64,000 nucleotides of DNA from Lactiplantibacillus pingfangensis. GTDB lineage: Bacteria > Bacillota > Bacilli > Lactobacillales > Lactobacillaceae. Below, one piece after another: positions 5,398-50,163 of this stretch. The translations under genes and the position numbers were made by a program. The notes beneath the pieces are model-generated. The model saw nothing but the letters and a program-made list of their open reading frames with translations, had not been told where the DNA came from and searched no databases. How positions within the stretch are numbered: position 1 is the stretch's first letter; each line of letters starts with the position of its first letter. The stretch spans positions 1 to 64,000 of the forward strand of contig NZ_BJDG01000015.1 of NCBI RefSeq assembly GCF_005404945.1, read 5' to 3'.

Positions 5398-5435
5398 TCA
5401 ATCACTCCATTAAATTTCAATCTAATGCCATAAAC

Positions 5436-5477
5436 TTGATACCGATCAATTTCTAATCAAGGACTAGCCTATATACT
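5436..5477 (+). promoter_or_regulatory. FNR-type box plus -10 of the P-type ATPase promoter
   Basis: TTGATACCGATCAA (5436-5449) is a perfect match to the FNR consensus TTGAT-N4-ATCAA. Exactly 22 bp later comes TATACT (5472-5477), which puts the box centre near -41.5, the class II activator position. There is no good -35 element, as expected for an activator-dependent promoter. Confidence 0.8.
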
Positions 5478-5509
5478 AAACTCATCAAATCAAATAAGGA
5501 GTCCTTAAA

Positions 5510-7423
5510 ATGAAATTGCAACAATTCTTAACAAAACATACGAACCAAATTACCTTAATCACTGGTATTCTCATTGCACTCGGTTTTCTCAGCAAATACG
5601 CGCTTGATTATACCCTCGGCTATCAAGTTATCCTAGCTGTGGCTTCCATCATCGCGGTCGTGCCAATTGCCGTCCGTGCTTGGAGCGCGCTGATCAACAA
5701 AGTTTTCAGTATTGAACTCTTAGTTAGCATCGCAGTCATCGGTGCTTTCATTATTGGTGAATTCAACGAATCTGCCATCGTCACTTTCCTATTCTTGTTC
5801 GGCTCATACCTCGAAAGCAAAACGTTACAAAAGACTCGGAATGCGATCAAAGGGTTAACGGACTTATCCCCAACCACTGCGACCTTGGTCACTGATAGTG
5901 GCACAGAAGAAGTCGACGTCGATGATGTTGACGAAGGCGATGTGGTCTTAGTCAAAACGGGTAGCCAAGTCCCTGTCGATGGGACGGTTGTTGAAGGTAA
6001 TGGCTACATTAACGAAGCGTCCATCACTGGGGAATCCCGTCAAATCAACAAGAATCTCGATGACCAAGTTTTCTCAGGTACCATCGTTGAAAACGGCTAT
6101 TTGAAAATTAAAGCGACTCAAGTTGGTGACGACACCACTTTTGCCAAAATTATCGAACTAGTTGAAGAAGCCCAAGACACGAAGTCGAAGGCTGAAAAAT
6201 TCATTGATCGTTTCGCGCAATATTATACGCCTGCAGTCCTCGTTTTAGCAGCTTTAGTGTTCGTCTTCTCCCGTGACTTCCGATTAGCCATCACCGTCCT
6301 AGTGCTTGGTTGCCCTGGTGCTTTGGTAATCGGCGCGCCAGTATCAAACGTGGCCGGTATTGGGAATGGTGCCAAGCGCGGCATTCTCATCAAAGGTGGC
6401 GAAGTGATTGATACCTTTGCCAAAGTCGATACCTTAGTTTTCGATAAGACTGGGACTTTAACAGAAGGTAACACGGCCGTCTCCAGTTTCAAAGCCTACA
6501 CTGACAATCAAGATCAACTATTGAATTTAGCTGCCACCGTGGAAGGTGTTTCAGACCATCCACTCGGTAAAGCCATCATCGACTACGCTGGTAGCCACGC
6601 TAAAGCCAGCGCAACGCTTAATTTGGACAATACCGAAACCGTTAAGGGCCAAGGCATCTGTGCTGAAGTCAACCAATCTCAGATCGTCATTGGTAACCAA
6701 AAAATGTTGACGGCTCATGATATTAGCCTCTCAACAGACCAAACGCATGATTTAAATGACATGCAACAAGCTGGTAAATCAACCGTTATCATGGCAATCG
6801 ACGGCGTTGTTCAACTCATTTTCGGTATCTCTGACACGGTTCGTCCAAATGTCAAAGACTCACTTGCTGCGCTAAAAGCCCAAGGAATCAAGCGACTAGT
6901 CATGTTAACTGGTGATAACGAATTGACTGCGGACGCCGTTGCCCGTGAACTCAACATTGATGAAGTTCACGCCAACCTGTTGCCAGAAGAAAAGGTCGAT
7001 TACGTTAAACAGCTCAAAGCTGACGGCAATACGGTTGCCTTCATCGGCGATGGTATCAACGATAGTCCCTCAATCGCCAACGCCGACATTGGGATTGCCA
7101 TGGGCAGCGGCACTGACGTTGCCATCGACACCTCCGATGTGGTCTTGATGCAATCTAGTTTCCCAGCTCTAGTTCACGCCCACGGCTTGGCTAAGAAGAC
7201 TGTTTTGAACACACGTGAAAACATCTTCATCGCCATTGCGACCGTTGCTTTCTTACTGATTGGCTTAATCTTCGGTTACATCTACATGGCCAGCGGTATG
7301 TTCGTCCATGAAGCTAGCATCTTAGTTGTCATCTTCAACGCGATGCGCTTAATCAACTTCCGGACTAAATTTGATAAGACCCGTCAAGAACCCGTTCAAC
7401 ATACTGCCACCACAACTGCTTAA
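5510..7423 (+). CDS. Heavy-metal-translocating P1B-type ATPase
   Basis: 637 residues, exports a transition-metal ion using ATP. Visible: TGES actuator loop (173-176), a transmembrane metal motif reading GCPGALVIGAP (CPG at 268-270), phosphorylation site DKTGT (Asp 312), the HP dipeptide SDHPLG, MLTGDN, GDGINDSPS and a last helix with HEASILVVIFNAMRL. It has no N-terminal HMA metal-binding domain. The H-E pair in the last helix resembles the P1B-4 group (Co/Fe/Zn efflux, usual motif SPC), while the CPG motif fits neither CPC nor SPC classes, so the metal cannot be named. It stands alone, driven by an FNR-box promoter shared with the two CopZ-like genes at 10.4-10.9 kb, which may supply the missing metal-delivery domain. 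AAGGAG precedes the ATG. Confidence 0.9.
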   Translation: MKLQQFLTKHTNQITLITGILIALGFLSKYALDYTLGYQVILAVASIIAVVPIAVRAWSALINKVFSIELLVSIAVIGAFIIGEFNESAIVTFLFLFGSYLESKTLQKTRNAIKGLTDLSPTTATLVTDSGTEEVDVDDVDEGDVVLVKTGSQVPVDGTVVEGNGYINEASITGESRQINKNLDDQVFSGTIVENGYLKIKATQVGDDTTFAKIIELVEEAQDTKSKAEKFIDRFAQYYTPAVLVLAALVFVFSRDFRLAITVLVLGCPGALVIGAPVSNVAGIGNGAKRGILIKGGEVIDTFAKVDTLVFDKTGTLTEGNTAVSSFKAYTDNQDQLLNLAATVEGVSDHPLGKAIIDYAGSHAKASATLNLDNTETVKGQGICAEVNQSQIVIGNQKMLTAHDISLSTDQTHDLNDMQQAGKSTVIMAIDGVVQLIFGISDTVRPNVKDSLAALKAQGIKRLVMLTGDNELTADAVARELNIDEVHANLLPEEKVDYVKQLKADGNTVAFIGDGINDSPSIANADIGIAMGSGTDVAIDTSDVVLMQSSFPALVHAHGLAKKTVLNTRENIFIAIATVAFLLIGLIFGYIYMASGMFVHEASILVVIFNAMRLINFRTKFDKTRQEPVQHTATTTA

Positions 7424-7439
7424 CTTAATCAGTCATACG

Positions 7440-7474
7440 AAATGGCCGCCCTCAAAATTGAGAGCGGTCATTTT
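7440..7474. terminator. Bidirectional terminator
   Basis: AAATGGCCGCCCTC / GAGAGCGGTCATTT imperfect stem with TTTT on the plus side and a flanking A-run for the minus side, between the convergent ATPase and XRE genes. Confidence 0.75.
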
Positions 7475-7476
7475 GG

Positions 7477-7785
7477 TTATGCTTTTATCAATTCAATCAC
7501 TCGTGGATCCTTTTCAATCATTTCCAACAACCGACTCGCACTACGATTGGGACTTGCCTTACCACTTTCCCAAGCCTCTACGGTTCGAAAAGAAATTGAT
7601 AAGTAGCTTGCCAGAACCCGCTGCGTCATATGATTAGTCTCGCGAATTCTTTTAATATCGACGGCATTAAATCTGGGCGCAGGCTTAACAGTTACAGTAT
7701 GTGAGGTAACCATTGACTCATCACCATCAAGGTACGCCTTAGCCTGCGCGATACTTTGTGCCAATTCATTTGTTTCTCTTTCCAT
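7477..7785 (-). CDS. XRE-family regulator, antitoxin-like
   Basis: About 102 residues from MERETNEL. An earlier ATG seven codons upstream has no ribosome site, and the candidate SD AAAGGA is about 13 bases from the chosen start, so the start is uncertain. The C-terminal half is a helix-turn-helix (IKRIRETNHMTQRVLASYLS, then RTVEAWESGKASP) of the HigA/NadS antitoxin type. The N-terminal half is acidic and flexible, as in antitoxins that wrap a toxin. No toxin-sized gene is adjacent: upstream is 265 bp of non-coding DNA and downstream the terminator. It may be an orphan antitoxin or a solitary repressor. Confidence 0.75.
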   Translation of the reverse strand: MERETNELAQSIAQAKAYLDGDESMVTSHTVTVKPAPRFNAVDIKRIRETNHMTQRVLASYLSISFRTVEAWESGKASPNRSASRLLEMIEKDPRVIELIKA

Positions 7786-36037: not shown

Positions 36038-37504
36038 TTAAACCGCTTTAACTGCCGTGACAAAGCGATCAAACGCTGCCTCGCCAGCTGCATCCCATTT
36101 AAACACGCCAGCATCCGCGAGCACGCGAGCAAAGACTTGACCAACTTCACGGTCAATAATCTCGGTGACGTTACTTTCATTAAAGTCATACTTGGCCTTC
36201 AACGCGTCTGCCCATGGTTGATGCATGGCTACCATCTGATTATGACGACCTAAAACATAATTTGCAACCTCATGTAGCTCGGGTTTCAGCCGAGCTGGCA
36301 AAATTGCGCGGCCCATCACTTCAATCAACCCAATATTTTCTTTCTTAATATGTTGAACGTCCTGATGCGGATGAAAAATGCCGTCTGGATATTGCGCGGA
36401 AGTCTGATTATCTCGCAAGACTAAATCCATCACAAACTGATCGCCGACCTTGCGCACAATCGGAGTCGTCGTGTGATGCCGAACATCATCGGTATAGGCC
36501 CGAACGTCAACTTGTTCATCAGAATAATGCATCCAGCATTGATGAATTTTAGTTGCCGCCGCGATTAACGCGTCAGTGTCCGAACTCAGCAAGCGAATCG
36601 TGGACATCGGCCATTTAACGATCCCGGCTTCGACCCCAGCAATGCCTAAGTCAATCTGACGGTCAATCGGTGCTTTCATCATTGGAAAGACATGCCGACC
36701 ACCTTGATAGTGTTCGTGGGTCAACATGGAGCCGCCAACAATCGGCAAATCAGCGTTACTCCCAACAAAATAATGTGGAAATTGGGTCACAATTTCAATC
36801 AAATTACTAAAAGTCTGGCGATTAATCACCATTGGCCGATGCACTTTGTCTAAGAAAATCGAGTGCTCATTAAAATACGCATATGGTGAATATTGAAAGC
36901 CCCAAGTTTCGCCGCCGACAGTCAACCGAATGACGCGATGATTGCTGCGCGCCGGATAACCTAAGCGACCTAAATAGCCTTCATTTTCAAGGCAAAGTTG
37001 ACACAGCGGGTAGCCATTTTCTGGGGCATCCTTGGCTGCGGCAATGGCCTTAGGGTCTTTTTCCGGTTTCGATAAATTAATCGTAATTTCCAAATCGCCA
37101 AAATCAGTTTTGGCTGGGAAGACCACGTTTTTCGCAATCGCGCGCGTCTTAATGTAGTCATTCGCTTGACTCAACTGATAAAAATAAGCCGTTGCAGTTT
37201 GCGGACTCGTTTGATATTTGTTCCAAAAAGTTTGATTTACGGCTGACGGTAATGGTGTCACTAAATCCATTAATTGATCCGCTAAAATTTCCTCATCAGA
37301 TTGCGTTCGGTCAATTTTGCCGCTCTGCGTCGCCGTTTTAACTAGCGCATCCGTCAGACTAGTCAATTGATCATCCGGCGCTTCAACCGGATCAGCCTCG
37401 CCAACGAGTGCCAAGATCCGATTGTGGACATAAATTTGATCTAATTCGGTATATGGTGATGGTGACGCAATGACAGCCGCCACAAATCGATCAACCGTTG
37501 TCAT
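36038..37504 (-). CDS. galT: Galactose-1-phosphate uridylyltransferase (GalT, Firmicutes class II)
   Basis: 488 residues, length of the large Gram-positive GalT rather than the 350-residue E. coli type. Transfers UMP from UDP-glucose to galactose-1-phosphate. Visible family blocks: HNRILALVG near the N-terminus, ENGYPLCQLCLENEGYLGR near 165, SIFLDKVHRPMVI, and the active-site loop THEHYQGGRHVFPM near 275 (H-E-H-Y-Q-G-G). Its ATG overlaps the galE stop by one base, so the two are coupled. Confidence 0.94.
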   Translation of the reverse strand: MTTVDRFVAAVIASPSPYTELDQIYVHNRILALVGEADPVEAPDDQLTSLTDALVKTATQSGKIDRTQSDEEILADQLMDLVTPLPSAVNQTFWNKYQTSPQTATAYFYQLSQANDYIKTRAIAKNVVFPAKTDFGDLEITINLSKPEKDPKAIAAAKDAPENGYPLCQLCLENEGYLGRLGYPARSNHRVIRLTVGGETWGFQYSPYAYFNEHSIFLDKVHRPMVINRQTFSNLIEIVTQFPHYFVGSNADLPIVGGSMLTHEHYQGGRHVFPMMKAPIDRQIDLGIAGVEAGIVKWPMSTIRLLSSDTDALIAAATKIHQCWMHYSDEQVDVRAYTDDVRHHTTTPIVRKVGDQFVMDLVLRDNQTSAQYPDGIFHPHQDVQHIKKENIGLIEVMGRAILPARLKPELHEVANYVLGRHNQMVAMHQPWADALKAKYDFNESNVTEIIDREVGQVFARVLADAGVFKWDAAGEAAFDRFVTAVKAV

Positions 37505-38508
37505 TAAGCTTGGCCTCCTCGATCATCATAGCCGGCGGGATGCTGCTGTTTCCAGTTCCAGGCCGTCTTAATAATTTCTTTGACATCGTCATATTGTGGC
37601 TGCCAGCCCAAAATGTGCCGCGCTTTATCGCTAGCGGCAATCAATGTGCTAGGATCACCCGCCCGGCGTGGTGCCATCACTGCTGGAATCGGCTTGCCAG
37701 TGACTACTCGGGCGGCATCCAACATTTGCTTATTTGAAAAACCCGTTGAAGAACCAAGATTAAAGGCATTGCTATCATGACCTTGCTGCAAATATTCTAG
37801 GGCCAAGATGTGGGCATCTGCCAAATCAACGACATGGACATAGTCGCGAACATTGGTACCATCAGGCGTTGGATAATCACCGCCAAAAATTTGTAATTGC
37901 TCACGTTCACCAGCAGCCACTTGTAAAATAATTGGGACCAAATGCGTCTCGGGATGGTGATCTTCACCAATACTCCCATCAGGTTTCGCGCCCGCCACGT
38001 TAAAGTAGCGTAGCGCCACAAACTTAATGCCGTATGCGACATCTGACCAGTGCATGATTTTTTCCATGGCTAATTTACTTTCACCATAAGGATTCGTCGG
38101 CACTTGTGGATCAGTTTCCTTAATCGGCACTTGTTTTGGCTCACCATAAGTTGCCGCTGTTGAAGAAAAAACAATCCGCTTAACATCATGTTTTTGCATG
38201 ACTTCGAGTAATTTGACCATGCCAGTCGTATTATTATCAAAATATTTGAGTGGCTTTTCCATTGATTCTGGCACCACCGAAAAGGCCGCAAAATGCATGA
38301 CGCCGTCGACGGTTTCTTGGTCAAAAACACCGTTCATAAAGTCGGTATCGCGCACATCACCTTCATAAAACCGTGCCCGTGAGTTAACCGCTGCACGATG
38401 TCCTGTAATCAAGTTATCAACCACCGCAACGTCAACCCCTTTGGCAATCAACCGATCAACCGCATGGGAACCAATATAACCAGCCCCACCTAAAACTAAA
38501 ACTGCCAT
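37504..38508 (-). CDS. galE: UDP-glucose 4-epimerase
   Basis: 334 residues from [17 protein letters not shown] is 8 bases ahead of this ATG and only 2 ahead of the earlier one. Short-chain dehydrogenase fold with NAD loop GGAGYIGSH, catalytic Tyr in [10 protein letters not shown] (the SDR YxxxK) and the Ser-Thr pair SSTAATYG. It interconverts UDP-galactose and UDP-glucose, closing the Leloir cycle. Second gene of the operon, between galK and galT. Confidence 0.95.
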
Positions 38509-38533
38509 GTTCATAACCTCCTAGTGTTAATCC

Positions 38534-39712
38534 TTACGCCTCAACCAATGGTAATTCTTGGGGTCCATCGGCGATTTCAGCAATATAAAAGGCTGCATCA
38601 TGGCCGATCTTTTCGCGATAAACTTTACCCACATTTTGCTTGAAATTCTCAACTTCATCTTTAGCAACAATCGCAATTGCACAACCGCCAAAGCCGGCCC
38701 CAGTCATCCGGGCACCCAAAACGCCAGGCTGTTGCCAAGCCGTTTCGGCTAACGTATCTAGTTCCTGACCCGTGACTTCATAATCAAAGTGTAGCGACAC
38801 ATGTGAGGCCGTCACTAATTGACCAAAAGTTGTTAAATCATCATCCGCTAACGCTTTCGTCGCCCGAATCGTCCGCTGATTTTCAAAGACCGCGTGACGT
38901 GCGCGTTTAATCAGCGTTTCATCATTGATGAGGTAGGCCGCTTCATCGAATTCGGCTTCGTTTAAGTCACCTAAGGACTTGATGTCTAACTTAGTTTGTA
39001 ACCGCCGTAGTGCTTCTTCACATTCTGACCGCCGCTCATTATATTTGGAATCTGCTAATTCACGCCGTTTATTAGTATTCATAATCACAATGACATGCTC
39101 GCCCAACTTTACAGGGGCATAAGAATAAGCCATTGTGTTAGTATCTAGTAAAATTGCTTGATCTTTTTTACCCATGCCAACCGCAAACTGGTCCATAATT
39201 CCTGAATTGACGCCAATGTAGTCATTTTCAACCTGCTGTCCCAATTTTACTAATTCCAGTTCACTAACCGACAACTTGAAGGCAGCTTTTAGAATTGTCC
39301 CCATCAATAATTCAATTGACGCAGATGAAGATAGACCCGCCCCATCCGGCAAATTACCATGAACGAATAAGTCAAAACCATGATCAAAGGTGACACCCGT
39401 TTTGGCAAGCATCGCAAGCATGCCTTTTGGATAGTTAGTCCAACCAGCAGCCTTTTGATAGGCTAAGTCGTTAATATCAAAGCTCACGATTCCTTGATCA
39501 GGAATATTTGCAGAGTACATCCGCACGGTAGTGTCTGTGCGAGCAGCATACACGCCGTAGGTTCCAAGACTAATTGCACATGGAAAGACATGCCCACCAT
39601 TATAATCGGTATGTTCACCAATCAAATTGATTCGACCAGGTGAGAAGAAAACGCGTTCTGGTTGACTGTTATACACAGCTTGGAATTCTTGTTGTAAGTT
39701 AGTGATTGCCAT
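38534..39712 (-). CDS. galK: Galactokinase
   Basis: 392 residues from MAITNLQQEF; GGAGG lies upstream, while an earlier in-frame start at 39829 runs back through the promoter. GHMP kinase fold: PGRINLIGEHTDYNGG signature (residues about 25-40), GAGLSSSASIELL phosphate loop (about 125) and the C-terminal GARMTGAGFGGCAI. Phosphorylates alpha-galactose at C1. First gene of galKETR. It has a good sigma-A promoter with a TTTACTAAA double repeat just downstream. Confidence 0.96.
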   Translation of the reverse strand: MAITNLQQEFQAVYNSQPERVFFSPGRINLIGEHTDYNGGHVFPCAISLGTYGVYAARTDTTVRMYSANIPDQGIVSFDINDLAYQKAAGWTNYPKGMLAMLAKTGVTFDHGFDLFVHGNLPDGAGLSSSASIELLMGTILKAAFKLSVSELELVKLGQQVENDYIGVNSGIMDQFAVGMGKKDQAILLDTNTMAYSYAPVKLGEHVIVIMNTNKRRELADSKYNERRSECEEALRRLQTKLDIKSLGDLNEAEFDEAAYLINDETLIKRARHAVFENQRTIRATKALADDDLTTFGQLVTASHVSLHFDYEVTGQELDTLAETAWQQPGVLGARMTGAGFGGCAIAIVAKDEVENFKQNVGKVYREKIGHDAAFYIAEIADGPQELPLVEA

Positions 39713-39734
39713 AATTGGAACCTCCGTAGTTTGC

Positions 39735-39786
39735 TTTACTAAAATTTTACTAAACTTAATGTAAGCCTTTTCAGATAGTTTGTCAA
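39735..39786 (-). promoter_or_regulatory. galK promoter and candidate GalR operator
   Basis: On the minus strand TTGACA (39781-39786), 17 bp, TACATT (39758-39763). Just downstream the repeat TTTAGTAAA occurs twice (39746-39754 and 39735-39743 in minus sense), a plausible LacI-family operator overlapping the transcription start. Confidence 0.6.
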
Positions 39787-39893
39787 TTGTCTTTAACTGT
39801 TTTCTGGTTATGCCGCGTTTCCGGTTCAAAATGGGCGAAAATCGGTCTATTAGTTCGATAATGTGCTATTATGAATATAATTATTAGGTACAG

Positions 39894-39925
39894 TAAGGGT
39901 CGCATCTTTCGGTGCGGCCCTTATT
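39894..39925 (-). terminator. Weak terminator after galM
   Basis: TAAGGGTCGCA / TGCGGCCCTTA stem with an 8-nt loop. No strong T-run on either strand, so partial read-through from galM into galK is possible. Confidence 0.5.
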
Positions 39926-39929
39926 CTAA

Positions 39930-40961
39930 CTATTTTGTTAATCGTTCATATTGGTAGCTAATGGTCGTCGTGACTGGTTTCCCAGGGCGAAGTATCGTGT
40001 CACCAAAATTAGGATGATTAATCGCATCTGGCAAAGTTTGTGCTTCAGTTGCCAATGCATTGTATTGGTGCGCGGTCTGTTGATCAGCATCAAACGGATT
40101 GGCCGTGAAAATAATTAGGCCATTCCGATCTGAATACAGTTTTATTTGTCGGTGGCCCTCAGTATCGCCCAATGCCGCAATTGGCTCAGTAGCACTTGGC
40201 GTGACTTCGTAGGCATCATCAAACTCCACCCCATCACTTTCAACTTTAAGCTGCTTTAATGATTCCGCCACGGGTTGTGGATAATTAAAATCATATGCAG
40301 TATTTTTAACGTCAAGCTTGCGACCAGTCGGGACTTTTTCCGCATCAAATTCTAGATGCTTAGCACTATGAATCTGTAACCAATGATGTGACAAACTAGT
40401 CCGGTCATCCGCAACATTCCAATAAACATGGTTGGTCGGATTGAACAAAGTTGCCGCATCCGTATCACCAGAAAAGGCAATTGAAACCCGATCCCGATTA
40501 TCCAATGTAAACTTAATTTTCACGTCCAAATTGCCTGGATAGTGATCATCAGTCGCATTAATATGGTGCGTCAATGTCACACTGACACTGTCATCAGTTT
40601 GCGTAAACTCACCGGCAAAATTCAACGTATTAAAACCGTGGTAGCCACCATGCAAGGAATGTGTCTGCTCATTCATATCAACTTGATACGTTTTTCCATC
40701 TATCTTAAATTTGGCAGCACCAATTCGACCCGCAACTCGTCCAATTGATTGGCACAAACAAAAGCCAACACGCTGATAATCGGCCATACTGTCAAGGCCC
40801 CAAATTAATGGGCGCTCAACACCATTTTCATTAACAACGAATTCCTGCCAGGTACCACCATAACTCAAAACAGAAATCCGCGTTTGTTGATCATTAATTA
40901 GGGTATATCGCATCACATCTTGACCGGCTAATTGATCAAAAATCGATTTTTTTGTTTCCAC
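39930..40961 (-). CDS. galM: Aldose 1-epimerase (galactose mutarotase)
   Basis: 343 residues starting GTG 40961 (GGAGGTG with 8-base spacing). Beta-sandwich mutarotase with NPTNHVYWNVADD (substrate-binding His) and ATEAQTLPDAINHPNFG (C-terminal catalytic Glu region). Converts beta- to alpha-galactose for GalK. It is transcribed ahead of galKETR in the same direction. A cre site (40984-40997) and a TTTAGTAAA GalR-like half-site (41028-41036) lie upstream. Confidence 0.92.
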   Translation of the reverse strand: METKKSIFDQLAGQDVMRYTLINDQQTRISVLSYGGTWQEFVVNENGVERPLIWGLDSMADYQRVGFCLCQSIGRVAGRIGAAKFKIDGKTYQVDMNEQTHSLHGGYHGFNTLNFAGEFTQTDDSVSVTLTHHINATDDHYPGNLDVKIKFTLDNRDRVSIAFSGDTDAATLFNPTNHVYWNVADDRTSLSHHWLQIHSAKHLEFDAEKVPTGRKLDVKNTAYDFNYPQPVAESLKQLKVESDGVEFDDAYEVTPSATEPIAALGDTEGHRQIKLYSDRNGLIIFTANPFDADQQTAHQYNALATEAQTLPDAINHPNFGDTILRPGKPVTTTISYQYERLTK

Positions 40962-41475: not shown

Positions 41476-41517
41476 CAAAAAATCACCTAATACCCTTTGA
41501 CACAGGATTAGGTGATT
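41476..41517 (-). terminator. Terminator of the hydroaromatic operon
   Basis: AATCACCTAAT / ATTAGGTGATT stem; on the minus strand six T follow. About 65 bp after the reductase stop. Confidence 0.78.
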
Positions 41518-41580
41518 ACTTGGCCATCAACTCATGGCGGTGGCGCTATTTAAACCTATCATTCGCAAAATCTTAGTCTC

Positions 41581-43872
41581 TTAAGCTAAAGCTTTACTTT
41601 TCAATTCCAAGCTATCTAAAAAATGACCAAAACATTGTTTCAAGAAATGTTCACTGCCATCATCATTCAATTGCCCGAATTCATCGAACTTTGCGCCGGC
41701 TTGTGGCAACATGAATTCATTTCCCGGCAACACTTGCGCATCAACACCTGGCGCATCCAAAATTTGCCGTAAATTCATTTGAGCCCTTACCGTCCCTTGG
41801 ATGCCTAGCGAAGTTCCAACGATCATGACTGGTTTATCCTTGAAGGGATGTTCCGCACAGGATAACCATTCGATGGCACTCTTCAACGCGGCCGGCACCG
41901 CATGATCATATTCGGGTACCCCAATCACAACCCCATCGGCAGCCGCAATTTTGGCACCGAGTGCTTTAACATTGGCCGGTTCATTGTCCAAGTCATCTTC
42001 ATTAAACAAAGGCAACTCGGAAATTTCACAAATATCAAAATTAACTTGGGCGTCAAACAATTCCTTCATCGCATAGAGTAACTTACGATTGTATGACTTT
42101 GACGCGTTGGTACCGACAATCGCCACAATGTTCGCCTCGTTATCGCCTGCAGTTGCTTGGCGTTGCGCATTTGCACTCGCCGCCGCACCAGCCACATAGC
42201 CGGACGAAATACCCCAAGTATTCATCATACTTGGCATCGAATCATGGCCGTTCGCGCCGCCGATGACTTCACCAGCACCAAAGTAATTCGCAACGGGCGT
42301 ATTCTTTGAGGTTAATAATTGTAGATCATGACCATCTGCCGCATAACCACCTAAGGTTGTGGCAAAACGGTCCCGTTGCTCAATCACATAATACTTGTCA
42401 CCAACAAATTGGTGCAGAAACTTTGGATCCCGACCGAATTCACGATCATGACCTTCTGTGACATAACCTTGGTAGTCAGCCACCGTTTTGGCCAATTGCT
42501 GCCCATCAATTCCGGCGGCCGCTGCGACCGTCTGTAAATCACCTTTCGCGAAGATTGGCCGTTTGTCAGGGTCAGCAAAGAAGCCTTGAATTTCTTGGGG
42601 CGTGAAATCATGGAGAATCAATAAATCGTAAACCTTTTTCCACGTCCGTTCATCCATCAATAAGTAAGCAACCTTGTCATCCTGTTTCAAGATGGCATTC
42701 CGAAATGCCGTATAAACGTTAGATTCGTTGACGATTCGTTGACCTTTAGAGTTAACATAAATTGACCCCATGTCCGTCGCTTGTTTCGACGCGTAAGTCG
42801 TTAGCTTAGCCACACCTGGTGCGACTTCAACCCCGTGTGGATAGATCTTATACCAGCCGAGATCATGGGTCTGTAAATCGAGCGCATCATTAAAGTTGTA
42901 AGCATCACCCGTGGAAGTCATTGGTCCATAATAATCGATACCATCACTTTCCGCACCACGCATTTTTTGATTAGCACCATGGCCCCCAGTTGCCAAAACC
43001 ACTGAATGTGCCTTGATTTTGACGGTTTGATCATGTTGCTTACCAATAATCCCAATCACTTGTTGTTGGCGATTTAACATTAAGTTTTCAACTCGCGTGT
43101 CGAGCAGAATCTTCCCACCTGCAGCGGTAAAAGCCTTAGAGACTTTTTGAATAAACTCAAAACTAGACGCCGATGGCAATTCAATCTGTCGATTAATGGA
43201 ATGTTCTGGCGTTTGGGTTTGCGCCTTTTGATAATGCAAATTAGCAAATTGACTAATAAAATCAATAGCTGGCCCAATGTGGTCGACCATTAAATCCGTT
43301 AAAGCTGGATAGTTCGACTCCAAGCTTTCACGGGCCACATCTTGCGCTAACATTTCTGGCGTATCATGGTTATTATCAAAGATTTGTGCTGCCACATCAG
43401 AACCGGTGCCAACCACGTTGGAACCGTTTAAAATAGTTGCACCACCTAAGTAACCATTCTTTTCAACCAAAATCACTTGCTGACCTTCAGCTAAAGCCCG
43501 ACAGCCAGCAACCAATCCAGCCTCACCACCGCCGATGATTAAGACATCTGTTTGATAATGTTGAATCGCGCTAGCTTTAGCCTTTTTAGGTACTGGTGTG
43601 ACAGTAATGCCTTCCTTAGCTACCGCTTGATCCGCTGATTTTAGTAAGGCCTGGGTCATTACCGTGGCACCACTGATGGTATCCACGTTAAATGATTGTT
43701 CCTCAATAATATTATGTTTTAATTTATCAATGACTTGATTAAAAATACCAGACGTTTCGGAATGCTTCAAAATTTTCAAATCTTCAATTTTGTTATCCTG
43801 AATATCTACTTCATAATTAATAATGCCATTGTGGCCCATTGCTTGGCCTTGAATTTGTTGGTTTTTAGTCAA
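41581..43872 (-). CDS. Three-domain flavin reductase (FMN_bind - FAD - NAD(P)H:FMN reductase), putative hydroaromatic/acrylate-type C=C reductase
   Basis: 763 residues from TTG 43872, which has GGAGTG 7 bases ahead and overlaps the apbE stop by 8 bp (TTGACTAA); an upstream ATG lies inside apbE. Domains: FMN_bind (1-90) with the covalent-FMN motif DTISGATVMTQAL (Thr 70); FAD-binding fumarate-reductase-like domain (about 108-560; IIGGGEAGLVAG at 112-122); NAD(P)H-dependent FMN reductase (581-763; VGTNASKSYN). It is a self-contained cytoplasmic enzyme: NAD(P)H to FMN to FAD to an alpha,beta-unsaturated carboxylate. In fumarate reductases the substrate Arg lies in HGxNRLGG; here this stretch reads NGHDSMPS, so fumarate is unlikely. 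Related enzymes reduce acrylate, urocanate or hydroxycinnamate. Its place in a dehydroquinate/shikimate operon suggests shikimate or dehydroshikimate as acceptor (inference). Confidence 0.85.
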   Translation of the reverse strand: MTKNQQIQGQAMGHNGIINYEVDIQDNKIEDLKILKHSETSGIFNQVIDKLKHNIIEEQSFNVDTISGATVMTQALLKSADQAVAKEGITVTPVPKKAKASAIQHYQTDVLIIGGGEAGLVAGCRALAEGQQVILVEKNGYLGGATILNGSNVVGTGSDVAAQIFDNNHDTPEMLAQDVARESLESNYPALTDLMVDHIGPAIDFISQFANLHYQKAQTQTPEHSINRQIELPSASSFEFIQKVSKAFTAAGGKILLDTRVENLMLNRQQQVIGIIGKQHDQTVKIKAHSVVLATGGHGANQKMRGAESDGIDYYGPMTSTGDAYNFNDALDLQTHDLGWYKIYPHGVEVAPGVAKLTTYASKQATDMGSIYVNSKGQRIVNESNVYTAFRNAILKQDDKVAYLLMDERTWKKVYDLLILHDFTPQEIQGFFADPDKRPIFAKGDLQTVAAAAGIDGQQLAKTVADYQGYVTEGHDREFGRDPKFLHQFVGDKYYVIEQRDRFATTLGGYAADGHDLQLLTSKNTPVANYFGAGEVIGGANGHDSMPSMMNTWGISSGYVAGAAASANAQRQATAGDNEANIVAIVGTNASKSYNRKLLYAMKELFDAQVNFDICEISELPLFNEDDLDNEPANVKALGAKIAAADGVVIGVPEYDHAVPAALKSAIEWLSCAEHPFKDKPVMIVGTSLGIQGTVRAQMNLRQILDAPGVDAQVLPGNEFMLPQAGAKFDEFGQLNDDGSEHFLKQCFGHFLDSLELKSKALA

Positions 43873-44815
43873 TTGAATACACTCCTTCGTGTCGCGGCTG
43901 CAAGCCACTGGTGACAAAAATCTGTTGTTGATGATCAATAAAGACGGCTTCCGTTTTTGGATACTGTTCAATTAAAGCAGCGCCAGCTTGGGGTCCTTTA
44001 AAGTAACAAACGGTGGCAAGCACTTCGGCCAATTCTGACTGTTCGGTAATAATCGTGACTTGATCCACTTGATTTTGTACTGGAAACCCAGTTTGCGGAT
44101 CTAAAATATGATGATACATCTGAGTACCGACCTTAAAGTACCGTTCAAAAATACCCGAAGTGACTACCGTCCGTGCTGGCATTTGAACTTGTAAGACTGG
44201 AATACCGCGGATTGCTTGGGGTGCCTGTACACCAACTTCCCAGCGGCCATCGGTGGTCAATGGGTTTGGCCCCAGCAACTTGACGTTACCGCCCAAATTA
44301 ACGATCGCACTAGTCACCCCAGCTTGTTGAAACTGTTGAATCAACTGATCGGCAAAATATCCTTTGGCAATGGCGCCTAAGTCTAGCTGCATCCCGACTT
44401 GTTTCAAGTAAACCGTTTGGGTCGGCGCATCTAAGACGACTTGTGAGTAATCCATCAAGCGTAAGCGGCGCTGAATTTCCGCCGACGATGGCACTTGATC
44501 ACCACCAAAGCCAATCCGCCACAGTTTTACAAGCGGCCCAATGAGGACATTGAAACTGTCACGATGACGTTTGGAATAGTGAAGCGCATCTTGAATCAAG
44601 GAAAACGCGGTCGCACTCACTTGCACTGGTCGAATACCCGCCTGCTGATTGATCGCCATCAATTCCGAATCGGATCGATTCATAGAAAACACTTGATCCA
44701 TCCGCTGCAAATAGTCATAACTCGCTTCAACGAGTGGCTGATTTGGTTCAAACAGGGTTATTGAAATGACGGTGCCCATCATTTGAAACTTAGACACATA
44801 TTTTTTCTGTGACAT
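43865..44815 (-). CDS. FAD:protein FMN transferase (ApbE family)
   Basis: 316 residues. Attaches FMN covalently to Thr or Ser in SGAT-type motifs, consuming FAD. Family signatures: SKFQMMGTVISITLF N-terminus, LDLGAIAKGYFADQLI near 165, VNLGGNVKLLG, TSGIFERYF and HHILDPQTGFPV near 245. There is no signal peptide or lipobox, so unlike the secreted ApbE it acts in the cytoplasm, the same place as the SGAT-bearing reductase encoded next. Overlap of 8 bp with that gene supports this pairing. It is the fourth gene of the five-gene operon. Confidence 0.92.
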   Translation of the reverse strand: MSQKKYVSKFQMMGTVISITLFEPNQPLVEASYDYLQRMDQVFSMNRSDSELMAINQQAGIRPVQVSATAFSLIQDALHYSKRHRDSFNVLIGPLVKLWRIGFGGDQVPSSAEIQRRLRLMDYSQVVLDAPTQTVYLKQVGMQLDLGAIAKGYFADQLIQQFQQAGVTSAIVNLGGNVKLLGPNPLTTDGRWEVGVQAPQAIRGIPVLQVQMPARTVVTSGIFERYFKVGTQMYHHILDPQTGFPVQNQVDQVTIITEQSELAEVLATVCYFKGPQAGAALIEQYPKTEAVFIDHQQQIFVTSGLQPRHEGVYSID

Positions 44816-44840: not shown

Positions 44841-45599
44841 TTAGTCGAGTTTTAAATCTTGTAATTCTGGTCGTAAGTGATCCAAGGCAATTTGGCCGGG
44901 TGCTGATGCCGCGCCAACTGTCGCGAAGGACAAGCAGGAACCAAATACTTCACCAGCAAGCCGGGAAACTTTTCCCAAATCACCCATCGACATCGTAATG
45001 ACCGGTTGGGCTAATTGCTGACGCGCCGTGTTGGTCGCAGTCAGTAAAGTTAAAACATCGTCAACCGATTGCGGCATCACCGCCATCTTGGCAATGTCGG
45101 CGCCAAAGGCCGCCATACTCGTCAAACGGGCAACAATGTCAGCAGCGGCTGGCGTTTTATCGAAATCATGATTACTCATAATGACGACAGCTTTTGCTTG
45201 ATGCGCCGCGGCAACCAGTTGTTTAACAGCAGTTTCATCGTGATAGCGTTCGACATCCAAGGCATCCGTAAAATGACCAGCTAAGACTGCGTCACAAACT
45301 TGGAAGTATGCCGGATCACTCAACACGAGTTCGCCACCCTCACCCTTAGTCCGGAAAGTTGTGAGCAAGGCGATTTCGCCTAGTGCCGCTCGCAATTGTT
45401 GGCCGGTAGCTTGCAACGCAGCTGCATCAGTGACGCCGTCAAAGAAATCAATCCGCCATTCAACTAAATCCGGTTGTGCGGCTTTAATTGGTGCCACGGC
45501 AGCTAAAATCTCAGCCGTTGTTTTCCCGGTAATTGGGACGGCAATTTTGGGCCGTCCGGTTCCTAAATTAAGATTGCGACATTTAACGACTGTTGGCAT
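44841..45599 (-). CDS. aroD: Type I 3-dehydroquinate dehydratase
   Basis: 252 residues from MPTVVKC (AAAGGGG ahead), overlapping the permease stop by 17 bp. Active-site residues visible: Glu 47 and Arg 49 (LVEWRIDFF), Arg 83 (TFRTKGEGG), His 144 (SNHDFDKTP) and Schiff-base Lys 171 (IAKMAVMPQS). Dehydrates 3-dehydroquinate to 3-dehydroshikimate. No other chorismate-pathway genes are beside it, so it looks catabolic (quinate/shikimate use) rather than biosynthetic. It adds to the permease, dehydrogenase and reductase of the same operon. Confidence 0.93.
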   Translation of the reverse strand: MPTVVKCRNLNLGTGRPKIAVPITGKTTAEILAAVAPIKAAQPDLVEWRIDFFDGVTDAAALQATGQQLRAALGEIALLTTFRTKGEGGELVLSDPAYFQVCDAVLAGHFTDALDVERYHDETAVKQLVAAAHQAKAVVIMSNHDFDKTPAAADIVARLTSMAAFGADIAKMAVMPQSVDDVLTLLTATNTARQQLAQPVITMSMGDLGKVSRLAGEVFGSCLSFATVGAASAPGQIALDHLRPELQDLKLD

Positions 45600-46806
45600 G
45601 TTCAACGGCCCCTTTCTGTTTGTTTTGACCAAATAATTGATAATACCGAATCGTAATTAAAACAGCTAATACAAAGCCGATTAAGGCAATAATGACATCG
45701 AATAAGAAGATATTGGCTAAATTACTAGCCATGGTCCCCGTGACCAATGGAATCGTGAACGACGCAATCGAGCCGGCTGTATAAAAGGCGCCGGTAATCG
45801 TCCCTTTACCTTGTGGGAAGAAGGTCGACATCACCGTTAAGCCGAGTTGCATCACGCCACCAGCTGCGGAAAATCCCACAACAAAGGCCATGATTGAACA
45901 AACCAAAGCGGTTGGGAACAAGTACATCAATAGTAACGATAAGAACGAAATCAACGTGTAGACACCTAAAAATTGAATTTCTTTAACCGCCCGTTTCGCT
46001 AATGCGGCTGTCACTAAGACACAGACAATGGAACCAACACTGTAATAACTAATCAATGCTCGTGAACTGGCATCACCCATGCCGGCCACTTTTGTCCCGT
46101 ACTGGCTGAGCCATTGGCTAACCAAATAAAATGTGGCTTGGGAAACGTAGCCATAAAGAATAAACAAGGTCCCATCGAACCATAAATTACCTTTTGACTT
46201 TGGCGCAACTGCTTTTGGTTCATCTGCTTTAGGGGCTGCTTGGTTAGCAACTGGGAATTTGCCAGCAGCTAGCATGAAAATCAAGTTCGCAACTAAAACG
46301 ACAATACATAAGATAAATGACCAACCATACCAATAGTTACCCGCAACTAGAAAACTAACTAACAACGGTAAGCCAAATTGGCCAACAGAAATGAATGCTT
46401 TAATAATGACATTGGCAGTCCCTTTAGATTGTGGAAACATTTCCATTAAAGCGGGATAAGTGCCAGAATCTAAGAATGAGTTGGCAATTCCCGCCAAAAT
46501 TCCAAAAATGTAAGCAACCGCAATCGACGGACTTAAGATAATCCCGCCGAAGAAGAGTAGGTAAGTAATTGTCCCAAGTACGACGAACGGCTTACGGCCA
46601 AACTTGTCCGACAGCCAACCGGAAACCAATAAGACAATCAACCGGCCAATTCCCAATGACGAAATCACAACCGCCACACCACCAGTATTGGTGTGCCACT
46701 GATTTGCCAGTGCATCCATGTTTTGCGCCAAGATAATAACGCCCATCCCATGAATAAAGTAATTTAAATATAAACTAATGGCAGTTGGCATATATTTATT
46801 TTTCAT
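45583..46806 (-). CDS. MFS transporter, likely quinate/shikimate-type permease
   Basis: 407 residues, 12 predicted helices. MFS motif A is GWLSDKFGRKPFVVLG between helices 2 and 3. Helix 5 region LDSGTYPALMEMFPQSKG and helix 10-11 region AAGGVMQLGLTVMSTFFPQGKG are shared almost word for word with the second permease at 48864. GGAGGG precedes the ATG. Lies second in the operon, between the dehydrogenase and dehydratase genes, and overlaps aroD. The substrate is inferred from context: a hydroaromatic acid. Confidence 0.88.
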   Translation of the reverse strand: MKNKYMPTAISLYLNYFIHGMGVIILAQNMDALANQWHTNTGGVAVVISSLGIGRLIVLLVSGWLSDKFGRKPFVVLGTITYLLFFGGIILSPSIAVAYIFGILAGIANSFLDSGTYPALMEMFPQSKGTANVIIKAFISVGQFGLPLLVSFLVAGNYWYGWSFILCIVVLVANLIFMLAAGKFPVANQAAPKADEPKAVAPKSKGNLWFDGTLFILYGYVSQATFYLVSQWLSQYGTKVAGMGDASSRALISYYSVGSIVCVLVTAALAKRAVKEIQFLGVYTLISFLSLLLMYLFPTALVCSIMAFVVGFSAAGGVMQLGLTVMSTFFPQGKGTITGAFYTAGSIASFTIPLVTGTMASNLANIFLFDVIIALIGFVLAVLITIRYYQLFGQNKQKGAVEHANSR

Positions 46807-46832: not shown

Positions 46833-47717
46833 TTATTTAGCATCTTCATCAAATAAAATGTGGCGAATATAGTCAACCGGCATGTCTTCACCAGTCCAAA
46901 GTTTGAAAGCGGCCGCACCTTGTTCTAGCATCATGCCAAGCCCGTTGAAAACATGTTCCACACCGGCTGCTTTAGCAACTGACATGAGTTTAGTCGTCCG
47001 TGGGGCATAAACCGTGTCAAACACAATCAAATCCTTGCGGAACCAAGTTGGATCATCTACCAAGGTTTCATTTTCCAATGGTTTCATCCCAACACCGGTT
47101 GAATCCGTATAGATGTATGAATCTTGAATTTCAGCTTTGAAATCGTCACGATCTTCTAAGGCATGGAGTGTTGCATGGCAATTAGTCCGTTCATTAATGA
47201 GTTTGACGTTACGTTCAGCATTTTCCCATTCAGCATCGTGTAAGTTAAAGATTGATAAGTCGCTAACACCATCTAAAGCTGCCTGAACCGCAATCGCTGT
47301 GCCAGCACCACCGGCACCTGCCAAAGTCATCTTGTGGCCGCGAATATCTAGTCCTTCGTCAGCTAAAGATTTCATGAAGCCAATCCCATCGGTGGTATAA
47401 CCCGTTAAGACGCCGTCATCATTGACGATCGTGTTCACCGCACCGACCATCTCAGCGGCAGGATCTAATTTATCTAATAGTGGGATGACCTTTTGCTTGT
47501 TAGGCATCGAAATATTTGAGCCCCGCATGTCCAAGGTGCGAATCGATTGAATCGCGGCTGGTAATTTATCGTTACCGACTTCAAACGCTAAGTAAGCGTA
47601 ATTCAACCCTAATTTAGCAAACGCATTGTTATGCATTGTTGGCGACATGGAATGCCGAATCGGATAAGCCATCAAGCCAATTAGTAAAGTATGTCCATCA
47701 ATTCGTTCTGTCATCAT
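46833..47717 (-). CDS. Quinate/shikimate dehydrogenase (YdiB-like AroE family)
   Basis: 294 residues. N-terminal substrate domain LIGLMAYPIRHSMSPTMHNNA. The catalytic Lys 74 is in NISMPNKQKV (the S-M-P-N-K form seen in YdiB, not the N-x-T-x-P-x-K of biosynthetic AroE). Asp 110 is in GYTTDGIGF, with Thr in place of the usual Asn. Rossmann loop TLAGAGGAGTA. It most likely oxidises quinate or shikimate (or reduces the dehydro forms) with NAD(H). First gene of the five-gene operon; AGGAG precedes it. The YdiB-like features support a catabolic role. Confidence 0.9.
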   Translation of the reverse strand: MMTERIDGHTLLIGLMAYPIRHSMSPTMHNNAFAKLGLNYAYLAFEVGNDKLPAAIQSIRTLDMRGSNISMPNKQKVIPLLDKLDPAAEMVGAVNTIVNDDGVLTGYTTDGIGFMKSLADEGLDIRGHKMTLAGAGGAGTAIAVQAALDGVSDLSIFNLHDAEWENAERNVKLINERTNCHATLHALEDRDDFKAEIQDSYIYTDSTGVGMKPLENETLVDDPTWFRKDLIVFDTVYAPRTTKLMSVAKAAGVEHVFNGLGMMLEQGAAAFKLWTGEDMPVDYIRHILFDEDAK

Positions 47718-47859: not shown

Positions 47860-48789
47860 ATGAACCTACGACACCTAGAATTTTTTAAAGAATTAGCCCG
47901 AACGCAGCACATGGCTAAAGCCGCTGAAAACCTTGGTATCTCGCAACCAACACTCAGCTATGCCATTAAAAAGTTAGAAACTGAACTCGGCGTGCCATTG
48001 TTCGAAGCGGATGGCCGAAATATCAAATTAACTGAGATTGGCGCGGTCTATTTAAAGTATATTACGGCTAGTTTAAATGATTTATCACAAGGTAACGAAC
48101 TGGTTCAAGAACTTATGAATCCTGACACTGGTCATGTCAAATTAGGGTTCACTTACACTTTAGGCCAACAATTGGTTCCTGAGCTGATTGCCAACTTCCA
48201 AGCAAACGCGACTAACCGGGCCATCACTTTTCAACTGGGTCAGGGCAACTCTGCGGATTTAATCCAAGGTTTAGCCGATGATCGGTATGACCTTGTCATG
48301 GCCTCTAATATTGATAAGCTTGGTGACTATGCGACTGAAAACTTGTTTGATTTCATTCCACTAGTGCAACAATCAATTATGGCAGCGGTCTCTAGCCAAC
48401 ATCCGTTAGCCGCTAAACCCAAGCTACATGTCGCAGACTTAGCACCCTATCCCATGATCATGTTCTCACACAATAGTGGGCTACGACCATTGATTGATCA
48501 AATTTTAGCACGGGCCAAGGTCACCCCTCAGATTGCCTACGAAGTCGAGGAAGACTACACGATGGCCGGATTTGTGAGCTACAATTTTGGCGTCGCCCTG
48601 ATGCCCTATTTACCATTGTTAAAACAAAGTAATATCTTATTAAAACCGCTAATTGACCAACCTTTACAGCATCAACTCTACCTGATCGTGAAAAGCAATC
48701 ATTTCACCACACCGTCCGTCCAGCGGTTTCAAGAATTTAGTCGTAGTTACTGTTGGCAGCATTACACCACTCAGGATCGGTTGATCTAA
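47860..48789 (+). CDS. LysR-family regulator of the hydroaromatic operon
   Basis: 309 residues. N-terminal winged HTH MNLRHLEFFKELARTQHMAKAAENLGISQPTLSYAIKKLE (positions 1-40), then a LysR substrate-binding domain (about 88-300) with GHVKLGFTYTLGQQLVPELI. Divergent from the aroE-like gene with 142 bp between start codons, the classic arrangement in which LysR activates its neighbour on binding an intermediate. The intergenic gap is AT-rich with TTTAAT/ATTAAA-type T-N11-A candidates. GGAAGGGG precedes the ATG. Confidence 0.9.
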   Translation: MNLRHLEFFKELARTQHMAKAAENLGISQPTLSYAIKKLETELGVPLFEADGRNIKLTEIGAVYLKYITASLNDLSQGNELVQELMNPDTGHVKLGFTYTLGQQLVPELIANFQANATNRAITFQLGQGNSADLIQGLADDRYDLVMASNIDKLGDYATENLFDFIPLVQQSIMAAVSSQHPLAAKPKLHVADLAPYPMIMFSHNSGLRPLIDQILARAKVTPQIAYEVEEDYTMAGFVSYNFGVALMPYLPLLKQSNILLKPLIDQPLQHQLYLIVKSNHFTTPSVQRFQEFSRSYCWQHYTTQDRLI

Positions 48790-48863: not shown

Positions 48864-50087
48864 TCAAACGTGATCGAGTTTACTCGACCGCTTCGCTGTG
48901 TGTGCGGGAACACGTGATAAATTTAGCACAATCAAACTGCATAAGACGCCAACCGCCGCAATGCCGACGTCGAACCACATAATATTTTGAATACTCTCAA
49001 TGGAGATCCAAGCCGTCACAATTGGAATGGTAAACGACGCTAAGCCACTGGCCGTATAATAAATCCCAGTAATTCGACCTTTTGCATGTGGAAAAACGTC
49101 ACTCATCACAGTCAGCCCAAGCTGCATCACGCCACCTGCAGCGGTACAACCAATGACAAATGAACTAATCAAAGCCGCTGACCAAGTTGGGAGTAACACT
49201 AAAACTAACAGTGCCACTAATGATAAAACGGTATCAACTAACATAAACCAGACCGGCTTTAAGACGCGTTCAACTAACAAAGCAGTCACAATGACTCCTA
49301 AAATTGACCCCACGCTATATACGCTTACTAATAGCCGCGCATGAACTAAATCTAATTTAATCACGTCACTCCCATATTTGGTCAGCCATTGACTCACTAG
49401 GTAAAAAGTCGCCATTGAAATATAGCCAAAAAGTGTTAAAACAACGCCCATGATTAACTGTTTAGACGTTAATTTTACCTTTGAAGTCGCCTGTATCGTT
49501 GTCGTTTTAGCTGCCGTTTGCGTGGACAAAGCAGGAAATTGACGCGCTCGCAACAAAATAAAGTTCAAAACCAATAAGACCACGCAACCGATAAAGGACC
49601 AGCCGTACCACCAGTTTAGGTGATCTAGGCCAGCGACTAGTAGTGGCAATAATAGCTCACCAATCGAGGCAAATGCCTTAATCATAATATTGGCAGTGGC
49701 TTGTCGTTGTGGATAGAGTTCCATCAATGCCGGATAAGTCCCGGAATCTAGGAAAGAATTCGCCATTCCTGCTAAAATTCCGGCACCATAAGCAACCACC
49801 ATATTTGGTGATAAGACAATCCCCACAAAAAACAAGGTATAGGTCAAAATACCCAATTGCACAAATACTTTACGCCCCAACCGATCCGAAAGTGATCCCG
49901 CCAAATACAACACTAATAGGCGGCCAATGCCTAGTGAAGAAATCACCAAAGCAACGCCCGCATCGCTAACTCGCCATTGACGGCTCAAGACCGTCATGTT
50001 CTGTGCTAAAATCACGATTGCCATCCCATGCACTAAATAGTTGAGATAAAGGCAAATCGTCGTCTTAATCCGTTCAGTCTGTGTCAT
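48864..50087 (-). CDS. MFS transporter, paralogue of the operon permease
   Basis: 407 residues from MTQTERIKTTICLYLNYLVHGM (ATG 50087), same length as the permease at 45583 and similar throughout: LYLNYxxHGMxIxILAQNM, ISSLGIGRL, SFLDSGTYPALMEL, AAGGVMQLGLTVMSD. MFS motif A is GSLSDRLGRKVFVQLG. It is probably a duplicated permease for a related hydroaromatic compound. Monocistronic; a near-consensus cre site (50164-50177) lies upstream, so unlike the operon permease it is probably glucose-repressed. AGG lies only weakly upstream of the ATG. Confidence 0.86.
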   Translation of the reverse strand: MTQTERIKTTICLYLNYLVHGMAIVILAQNMTVLSRQWRVSDAGVALVISSLGIGRLLVLYLAGSLSDRLGRKVFVQLGILTYTLFFVGIVLSPNMVVAYGAGILAGMANSFLDSGTYPALMELYPQRQATANIMIKAFASIGELLLPLLVAGLDHLNWWYGWSFIGCVVLLVLNFILLRARQFPALSTQTAAKTTTIQATSKVKLTSKQLIMGVVLTLFGYISMATFYLVSQWLTKYGSDVIKLDLVHARLLVSVYSVGSILGVIVTALLVERVLKPVWFMLVDTVLSLVALLVLVLLPTWSAALISSFVIGCTAAGGVMQLGLTVMSDVFPHAKGRITGIYYTASGLASFTIPIVTAWISIESIQNIMWFDVGIAAVGVLCSLIVLNLSRVPAHTAKRSSKLDHV

Positions 50088-50163
50088 TTGAGGATACCTG
50101 TGCCTTGTTAGATTTGAATTGAGTAACAAAACACTTTGCTCACCTATTAACTAACTATTTAAA

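Follow-up and report, generated by a model that had tools for sequence, protein, structure and literature searches.

A candidate shikimate-type double-bond reductase encoded beside apbE, aroD and aroE in Lactiplantibacillus pingfangensis

Positions 1-64,000 of the forward strand of contig NZ_BJDG01000015.1 (assembly GCF_005404945.1) from Lactiplantibacillus pingfangensis, the 64,000-nucleotide stretch that was analysed and is called the window here, contain an apbE gene followed by the gene of a three-domain flavoprotein with a fumarate-reductase-like catalytic domain, and the question raised by this locus is what the flavoprotein reduces. Judged by its residues, the name "fumarate reductase" is wrong for the protein. 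On balance it is probably an NAD(P)H-driven, covalently flavinylated reductase of the carbon-carbon double bond (C=C) of shikimate or 3-dehydroshikimate, forming dihydroshikimate. The argument turns on the following features, which involve flavin mononucleotide (FMN) and flavin adenine dinucleotide (FAD).

41581..43872, reverse strand: reductase coding sequence, 763 amino acids, TTG start, domain order FMN_bind, FAD_binding_2, FMN_red (open reading frame and Pfam).
43865..44815, reverse strand: apbE, predicted cytoplasmic FAD:protein FMN transferase (Pfam and inspection of the N-terminus).
43865..43872, reverse strand: 8-base-pair (bp) overlap of the apbE stop and the reductase TTG start (sequence).
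43621..43836, reverse strand: FMN_bind domain, residues 13-84 (Pfam, converted from residues).
43663..43665, reverse strand: Thr70 codon in SGAT, predicted FMN attachment site (motif and orthologs).
42238..43548, reverse strand: FAD_binding_2 or fumarate-reductase-like catalytic domain, residues 109-545 (Pfam, and fold matches to urocanate reductase, flavocytochrome c3 and cyclohexanone dehydrogenase).
42712..42714, reverse strand: Tyr387 codon at the position of the catalytic Arg402 of flavocytochrome c3 and Arg411 of the urocanate reductase UrdA (alignment; Tyr in 30 of 30 orthologs).
42229..42252, reverse strand: NGHDSMPS, residues 541-548, in place of HGxNRLGG (alignment).
41698..42132, reverse strand: NAD(P)H:FMN reductase domain (FMN_red), residues 581-725 (Pfam).

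A sequence-only reading of the window had described the reductase as a fusion of FMN_bind, FAD and NAD(P)H:FMN reductase domains with an SGAT flavin attachment motif at Thr70, and both descriptions hold. Pfam places FMN_bind at residues 13-84 (PF04205, 49.3 bits, cut-off 22), FAD_binding_2 at 109-545 (PF00890, 102.3 bits, cut-off 20.4) and FMN_red at 581-725 (PF03358, 126.8 bits, cut-off 24), all above cut-off. The SGAT motif, residues 67-70 in the FMN_bind domain, matches the [S/T]GA[S/T] motif of ApbE-flavinylated proteins, and residue 70 is Thr in 29 and Ser in one of 30 aligned orthologs. This alignment (A1) holds the window protein and those of 29 of the 38 named loci; left out were near-duplicates (L038, L044, L051 and L068), partial or broken sequences (L065, L066 and L067), a locus with no reductase (L070) and, for no special reason, L056. 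Thr70 is probably where ApbE couples FMN to the reductase.

The overlap of the two genes, also described in that reading, falls exactly at 43865-43872, where the apbE 3' end is TTGACTAA and the reductase TTG start (43872) lies within TTGACTAA. Although the mechanical reductase frame begins about 33 codons before it, the TTG start is credible because a Shine-Dalgarno-like AAGGAG lies inside apbE directly 5' of the TTG and because the identical 8-bp overlap start recurs in 14 of the 23 named loci with an adjacent apbE frame (ATG in eight, TTG in six). The remaining nine have overlaps of 4, 11, 11, 17 and 26 bp (five loci), an 18-bp gap (three) or a split apbE frame (one, L052). The genes are probably translationally coupled. 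The ApbE Pfam match spans the whole protein length, and the predicted lack of a signal peptide was confirmed in that neither a lipobox nor a hydrophobic N-terminus is present; one of the two other ApbEs in the host genome has a lipobox, LTACG (L074), and the third has none. A published flavinylation survey (PMC8238504) covers extracytosolic systems, and the string "Lactobacill" does not occur in the part of its text available to us. An inverted repeat, ATCACCTAAT...ATTAGGTGAT, lies 3' of the reductase gene at 41480-41520 and is a possible terminator that the terminator scan missed. The promoter and terminator scan gave no clear excess over shuffled sequence (9 against a mean of 13.0 and 8 against a mean of 6.9).

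Site positions in the FAD domain are given in what we take to be the residue numbering of flavocytochrome c3. From that protein to the window reductase, Gln363 becomes Lys342, His365 becomes Tyr344, Glu378 becomes Lys363, Arg381 becomes Thr366, Arg402 becomes Tyr387, His504 becomes Ala504 and Arg544 becomes Ser545, and the seven replacements are invariant across the 30 aligned orthologs except at position 545 (Ser in 29, Ala in one). Both His residues of HHTMGG are replaced, and Arg391, His543 and Asp544 are invariant in the same 30 orthologs. These equivalences derive from sequence alignment, not from the AlphaFold2 model, and they agree between an alignment with flavocytochrome c3 and urocanate reductase and one with three lactobacillar paralogs that retain the fumarate motifs (L073, L090 and L091). 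Since the replacement residues are conserved, the window reductase is not a decayed enzyme. NGHDSMPS had been reported in place of HGxNRLGG and is found there, at residues 541-548; the earlier view of "fumarate reductase" as a misnomer is now better supported, the Arg loop, Arg402, His365, HHTMGG and Glu378-Arg381 all being replaced in a conserved manner.

PDB entry 2lfc, an ortholog fragment, carries the name of a true fumarate reductase, and the FAD_binding_2 domain and the overall fold would also agree with that identity, but none of the 30 aligned orthologs keeps the residues of fumarate binding and proton relay, and TIGR01813 (cut-off 285.45) gives 344.6 to the L073 paralog with its full fumarate site against 182.5 to the window reductase. 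We consider this identity highly improbable and rejected it on the active-site residues. The 2lfc entry is an L. plantarum nuclear magnetic resonance structure entitled "fumarate reductase flavoprotein subunit" and corresponds to query residues 350-500 at 74% identity. The L073 locus (G000:C7:108000-118000) holds, at 4698-7780, a separate FMN_red gene and then an FMN_red-FMN_bind-FAD protein with full fumarate motifs, which is likely to be the real fumarate reductase of the host genome.

The AlphaFold2 model of the reductase is good overall, with a mean predicted local distance difference test score (pLDDT) of 82.0. UrdA came first in a fold search (Z 36.0, root-mean-square deviation (rmsd) 3.9 over 442), flavocytochrome c3 scored Z of about 32, and cyclohexanone dehydrogenase was not far below UrdA (Z 31.1, rmsd 3.7 over 445). 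Like the window reductase, UrdA of Shewanella (6t85, 6t86) has an FMN_bind and an FAD domain, and its FMN is covalent (PMC7921117, PMC10882135, from which its residue numbering is also taken). It shares Tyr at the His365 position (UrdA Tyr373, window Tyr344) but retains Arg411, His520 and Arg560, where the window reductase has Tyr, Ala and Ser. In UrdA an Arg411Ala result marks Arg411 as the required proton donor, and flavin oxidation is slowed 55-fold by Arg560Ala and 10-fold by His520Ala (PMC10882135). Because these three key residues are all absent from the window reductase, fumarate or urocanate reductase activity is unlikely. UrdA further differs in having no FMN_red domain, and its electrons presumably reach it from the membrane through the respiratory chain (PMC10882135). 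Flavocytochrome c3, also from Shewanella, has the FAD domain fold in common but differs in its site residues and carries a haem domain in place of FMN_bind (PMC8238504).

The matches to cyclohexanone dehydrogenase (8am3) and 3-ketosteroid dehydrogenases such as 4at0 (Z about 29-31, rmsd 3.5-3.9) are limited to the FAD domain, at about 19-20% identity to the window reductase. These enzymes act next to a ring ketone and in the oxidative direction. Together with NCBIfam matches to ring-carboxylate dehydrogenases, which are weak and lie far below cut-off, and the Tyr at the catalytic Arg position, their likeness in fold would suit a dehydrogenase running in reverse, in which FAD would dehydrogenate a ring acid or ketone in the direction of protocatechuate, and NAD(P)+ or a different acceptor would receive the electrons by way of the FMN domains. 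We think this unlikely, since an FMN_red domain normally accepts electrons from NAD(P)H and fermenting lactobacilli need electron sinks. The product reported for lactic acid bacteria is also the reduced one (PMC13204703).

The reductase and apbE form the 3' end of an operon with the order aroE-MFS-aroD-apbE-reductase, where MFS denotes a major facilitator superfamily transporter, and a divergent LysR gene stands ahead of it.

44841..45632, reverse strand: aroD, type I 3-dehydroquinate dehydratase (profiles; mechanical open reading frame start, the true start may be downstream).
45583..46806, reverse strand: MFS transporter, proposed quinate/shikimate importer (profile; 42% identical to the MFS protein heading the genome's aro operon).
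46833..47717, reverse strand: aroE-like shikimate/quinate dehydrogenase (profiles and solved relatives).
47860..48789, forward strand: divergent LysR-type regulator (profile).
48864..50129, reverse strand: second MFS transporter, 52% identical to the operon MFS (mechanical open reading frame start).

Among solved structures the best relatives of AroE are 3tnl (365 bits), presumably a Listeria protein, and YdiB (about 288 bits). The window AroE is thus similar to a YdiB-type quinate/shikimate dehydrogenase; in lactobacilli, however, it is tied to a C=C reductase operon. The dehydrogenase, 3-dehydroquinate dehydratase and transporter of quinate/shikimate utilisation occur here together and are dispensable for de novo synthesis. 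In both shikimate and 3-dehydroshikimate the ring C=C is conjugated to the carboxylate, and in 3-dehydroshikimate also to the ketone. Since the predicted chain from NAD(P)H:FMN through covalent FMN to FAD adjoins AroD and AroE, the makers of 3-dehydroshikimate and shikimate, a reductase of the ring C=C is the best reading. Galactose genes (by eye galT, galE, galK and galM; 36038-40961) adjoin the operon on the same strand.

The host genome (2.9 Mb, 99.98% complete) contains no match to 3-dehydroquinate (DHQ) synthase and no DAHP_synth_1 match for 3-deoxy-D-arabino-heptulosonate 7-phosphate (DAHP) synthase. It has a single Shikimate_dh_N gene, the window aroE, and two type I dehydroquinases. 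Because DAHP synthase and DHQ synthase are missing, AroD and AroE must use imported quinate or shikimate, and from its gene content the strain looks dependent on that import. A mainly biosynthetic role for aroD and aroE was judged unlikely on the same two absences. Contig C36 carries a partial aro operon (L096, 4463-10627), in which an MFS gene is followed by chorismate synthase among aromatic-pathway genes; genes resembling those for 5-enolpyruvylshikimate 3-phosphate synthase, prephenate dehydrogenase and shikimate kinase were recognised there by eye, not by profile. DHQ synthase is absent from 13 of 21 genomes of the genus and present in eight, so the reductase operon does not require its loss.

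The association with aro genes is conserved. Relatives of aroE and of LysR were each found within 8 kb of 35 of the 37 reductases in the 38 named loci, with aroD near 32, MFS near 28 and apbE near 24; an aroE and/or aroD relative is present in 35 loci and both in 32. No aroE or aroD was found in 18 stretches around 19 paralogous reductases, a comparison that is slightly generous, these stretches being shorter than the 8-kb ortholog flanks (only 4 kb for L072). The operon is present in L. plantarum (L036), S. collinoides (L057) and, with some split frames, S. paracollinoides (L045). Split frames affect, for example, LysR, MFS and aroD in L045; L052 has a split apbE frame, and in L066 and L067 the reductase frame is split. 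In a family-wide sample, orthologs with at least 51% identity outside FMN_red occur in 35 of 301 genomes (counted from the result rows), three of them in pieces (G019, G078 and G118); in a phylum-wide sample there was no ortholog at E <= 1e-90 besides that of the window's own genome (1 of 398). The module is also plasmid-borne. On the L. salivarius megaplasmid pMP118 (L098, NC_007930.1 68736-90415) one run carries a sugar-phosphate-isomerase-like gene, a short-chain dehydrogenase/reductase (SDR) gene, the reductase in a short form with no FMN_red, shikimate dehydrogenase and aroD, and 28 plasmid records, all Ligilactobacillus, match. For the short forms (about 570 amino acids, no FMN_red; L058, L061, L068, L071 and others), no FMN_red gene was found within 8 kb.

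Some clusters are larger, with a second aroE pair, an SDR gene (11 of 38 loci) or an AP_endonuc_2 barrel (five of 38), one of which weakly matches the 3-dehydroshikimate dehydratase QuiC (26.9 bits, cut-off 1200). These recurring partners could indicate a C=C reductase that belongs to the same pathway and has a different hydroaromatic intermediate as its substrate, such as a product of the SDR or of the isomerase-like protein. There is a small chance of this, but in most loci, including the window, the reductase gene adjoins aroE, aroD and transporter genes, and it is 3-dehydroshikimate and shikimate that AroD and AroE make.

The paralogs bear on a further possibility, that the protein is a phenolic-acid (hydroxycinnamate) reductase like HcrB/Par1, linked to quinate genes only because chlorogenic acid releases caffeate and quinate. 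HcrB/Par1 are NADH-dependent flavin C=C reductases of lactobacilli, L. plantarum HcrB being an NADH- and FMN-dependent hydroxycinnamate reductase in the same organisms (PMC10295242), and their domain set is related to that of the window reductase. We nevertheless find the proposal unlikely, as the profile scans showed no esterase or decarboxylase family in the operon and the paralogs that we take to be HcrB/Par1 homologues have no aro neighbours, are arranged FMN_red-FAD-FMN_bind and carry different site motifs (NTQGG, in 15 of 19 as assigned by domain order). The window class has the order FMN_bind-FAD-FMN_red and TTLGG instead. The 19 paralogs comprise 15 with the order FMN_red-FAD-FMN_bind, three FMN_red-FMN_bind-FAD proteins with fumarate motifs and one with no FMN_red in the available stretch. 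In a FastTree tree, for which no branch support is quoted and which includes 16 of the 19 paralogs (the FAD match of L084, L087 and L089 was too short), the orthologs form their own group apart from the paralogs, which fall in separate groups. The window reductase clade is a version of a known kind of enzyme in which the domains are permuted and the active site is remodelled.

Returning to reduction of shikimate or 3-dehydroshikimate, we infer the following scheme, from substrate and direction to flavinylation, electron order and residue roles. Plant quinate and shikimate would serve the lactobacillus as electron sinks. The MFS protein would bring them in, and the AroE-like dehydrogenase and AroD would interconvert quinate, 3-dehydroquinate, 3-dehydroshikimate and shikimate. 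ApbE, encoded just upstream, would put FMN on Thr70, so that hydride from NAD(P)H could enter at the C-terminal FMN_red domain and electrons pass to the covalent FMN of the N-terminal domain and on to the FAD of the central domain. The FAD would then saturate the ring C=C and so turn shikimate or 3-dehydroshikimate into its dihydro form, with NAD(P)+ regenerated. Tyr387 may act as proton donor instead of Arg402, perhaps tuned by Lys363, and the carboxylate and the ring hydroxyls may be bound by Lys342, Arg391 and His543/Asp544. Quinate is reduced by L. plantarum, L. collinoides and L. pastorianus. A 1971 study by Whiting and Coggins, cited in PMC8149962, reportedly dealt with quinate and shikimate in lactobacilli. 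According to a 2026 paper, lactic acid bacteria can use quinic acid as a hydrogen acceptor and may convert it to shikimic and then dihydroshikimic acid (PMC13204703, citing Filannino et al. 2015). Searches of open-licence papers showed no gene for dihydroshikimate formation by lactic acid bacteria, and one by presumed lp_ locus tags found nothing.

Several observations weigh against this scheme. Neither the ApbE pairing nor the fusion is universal: 13 of 37 reductase loci have no nearby apbE at the threshold used, and 13 of 37 reductases were scored as having no FMN_red fusion, "fused" and "short" being assigned by open reading frame length alone (L064 is fused by length only). Two of the 37 loci, both Tetragenococcus (L060 and L067), have no aro neighbour. 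The genome has only the AroE of the window, which could thus supply the partial aro operon as well. The model falls below a pLDDT of 50 at residues 145-149, 298-301, 314-323 and 503-506, several of them site loops, and the neighbourhood fits shikimate, 3-dehydroshikimate or another ring acid alike.

More tentatively, and with rather less confidence than for the activity itself, the protein could account for dihydroshikimate formation in lactobacilli and be the first member of a new substrate class. It would then be a covalently flavinylated reductase of a ring C=C whose Tyr-Lys pair stands in for the Arg-based proton relay of the fumarate and urocanate reductases, converging on the enone chemistry of ketosteroid and cyclohexanone dehydrogenase-like enzymes, and it would belong to a compact, partly plasmid-borne electron-sink module. 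The proposed activity names a single candidate gene and enzyme for dihydroshikimate formation from quinate, and would correct a misleading name that extends to PDB 2lfc. It would provide a natural example of a fumarate-reductase fold rebuilt with no catalytic arginine, and would be relevant to the redox balance of lactobacilli in fruit, vegetable, coffee, cider and silage fermentations.

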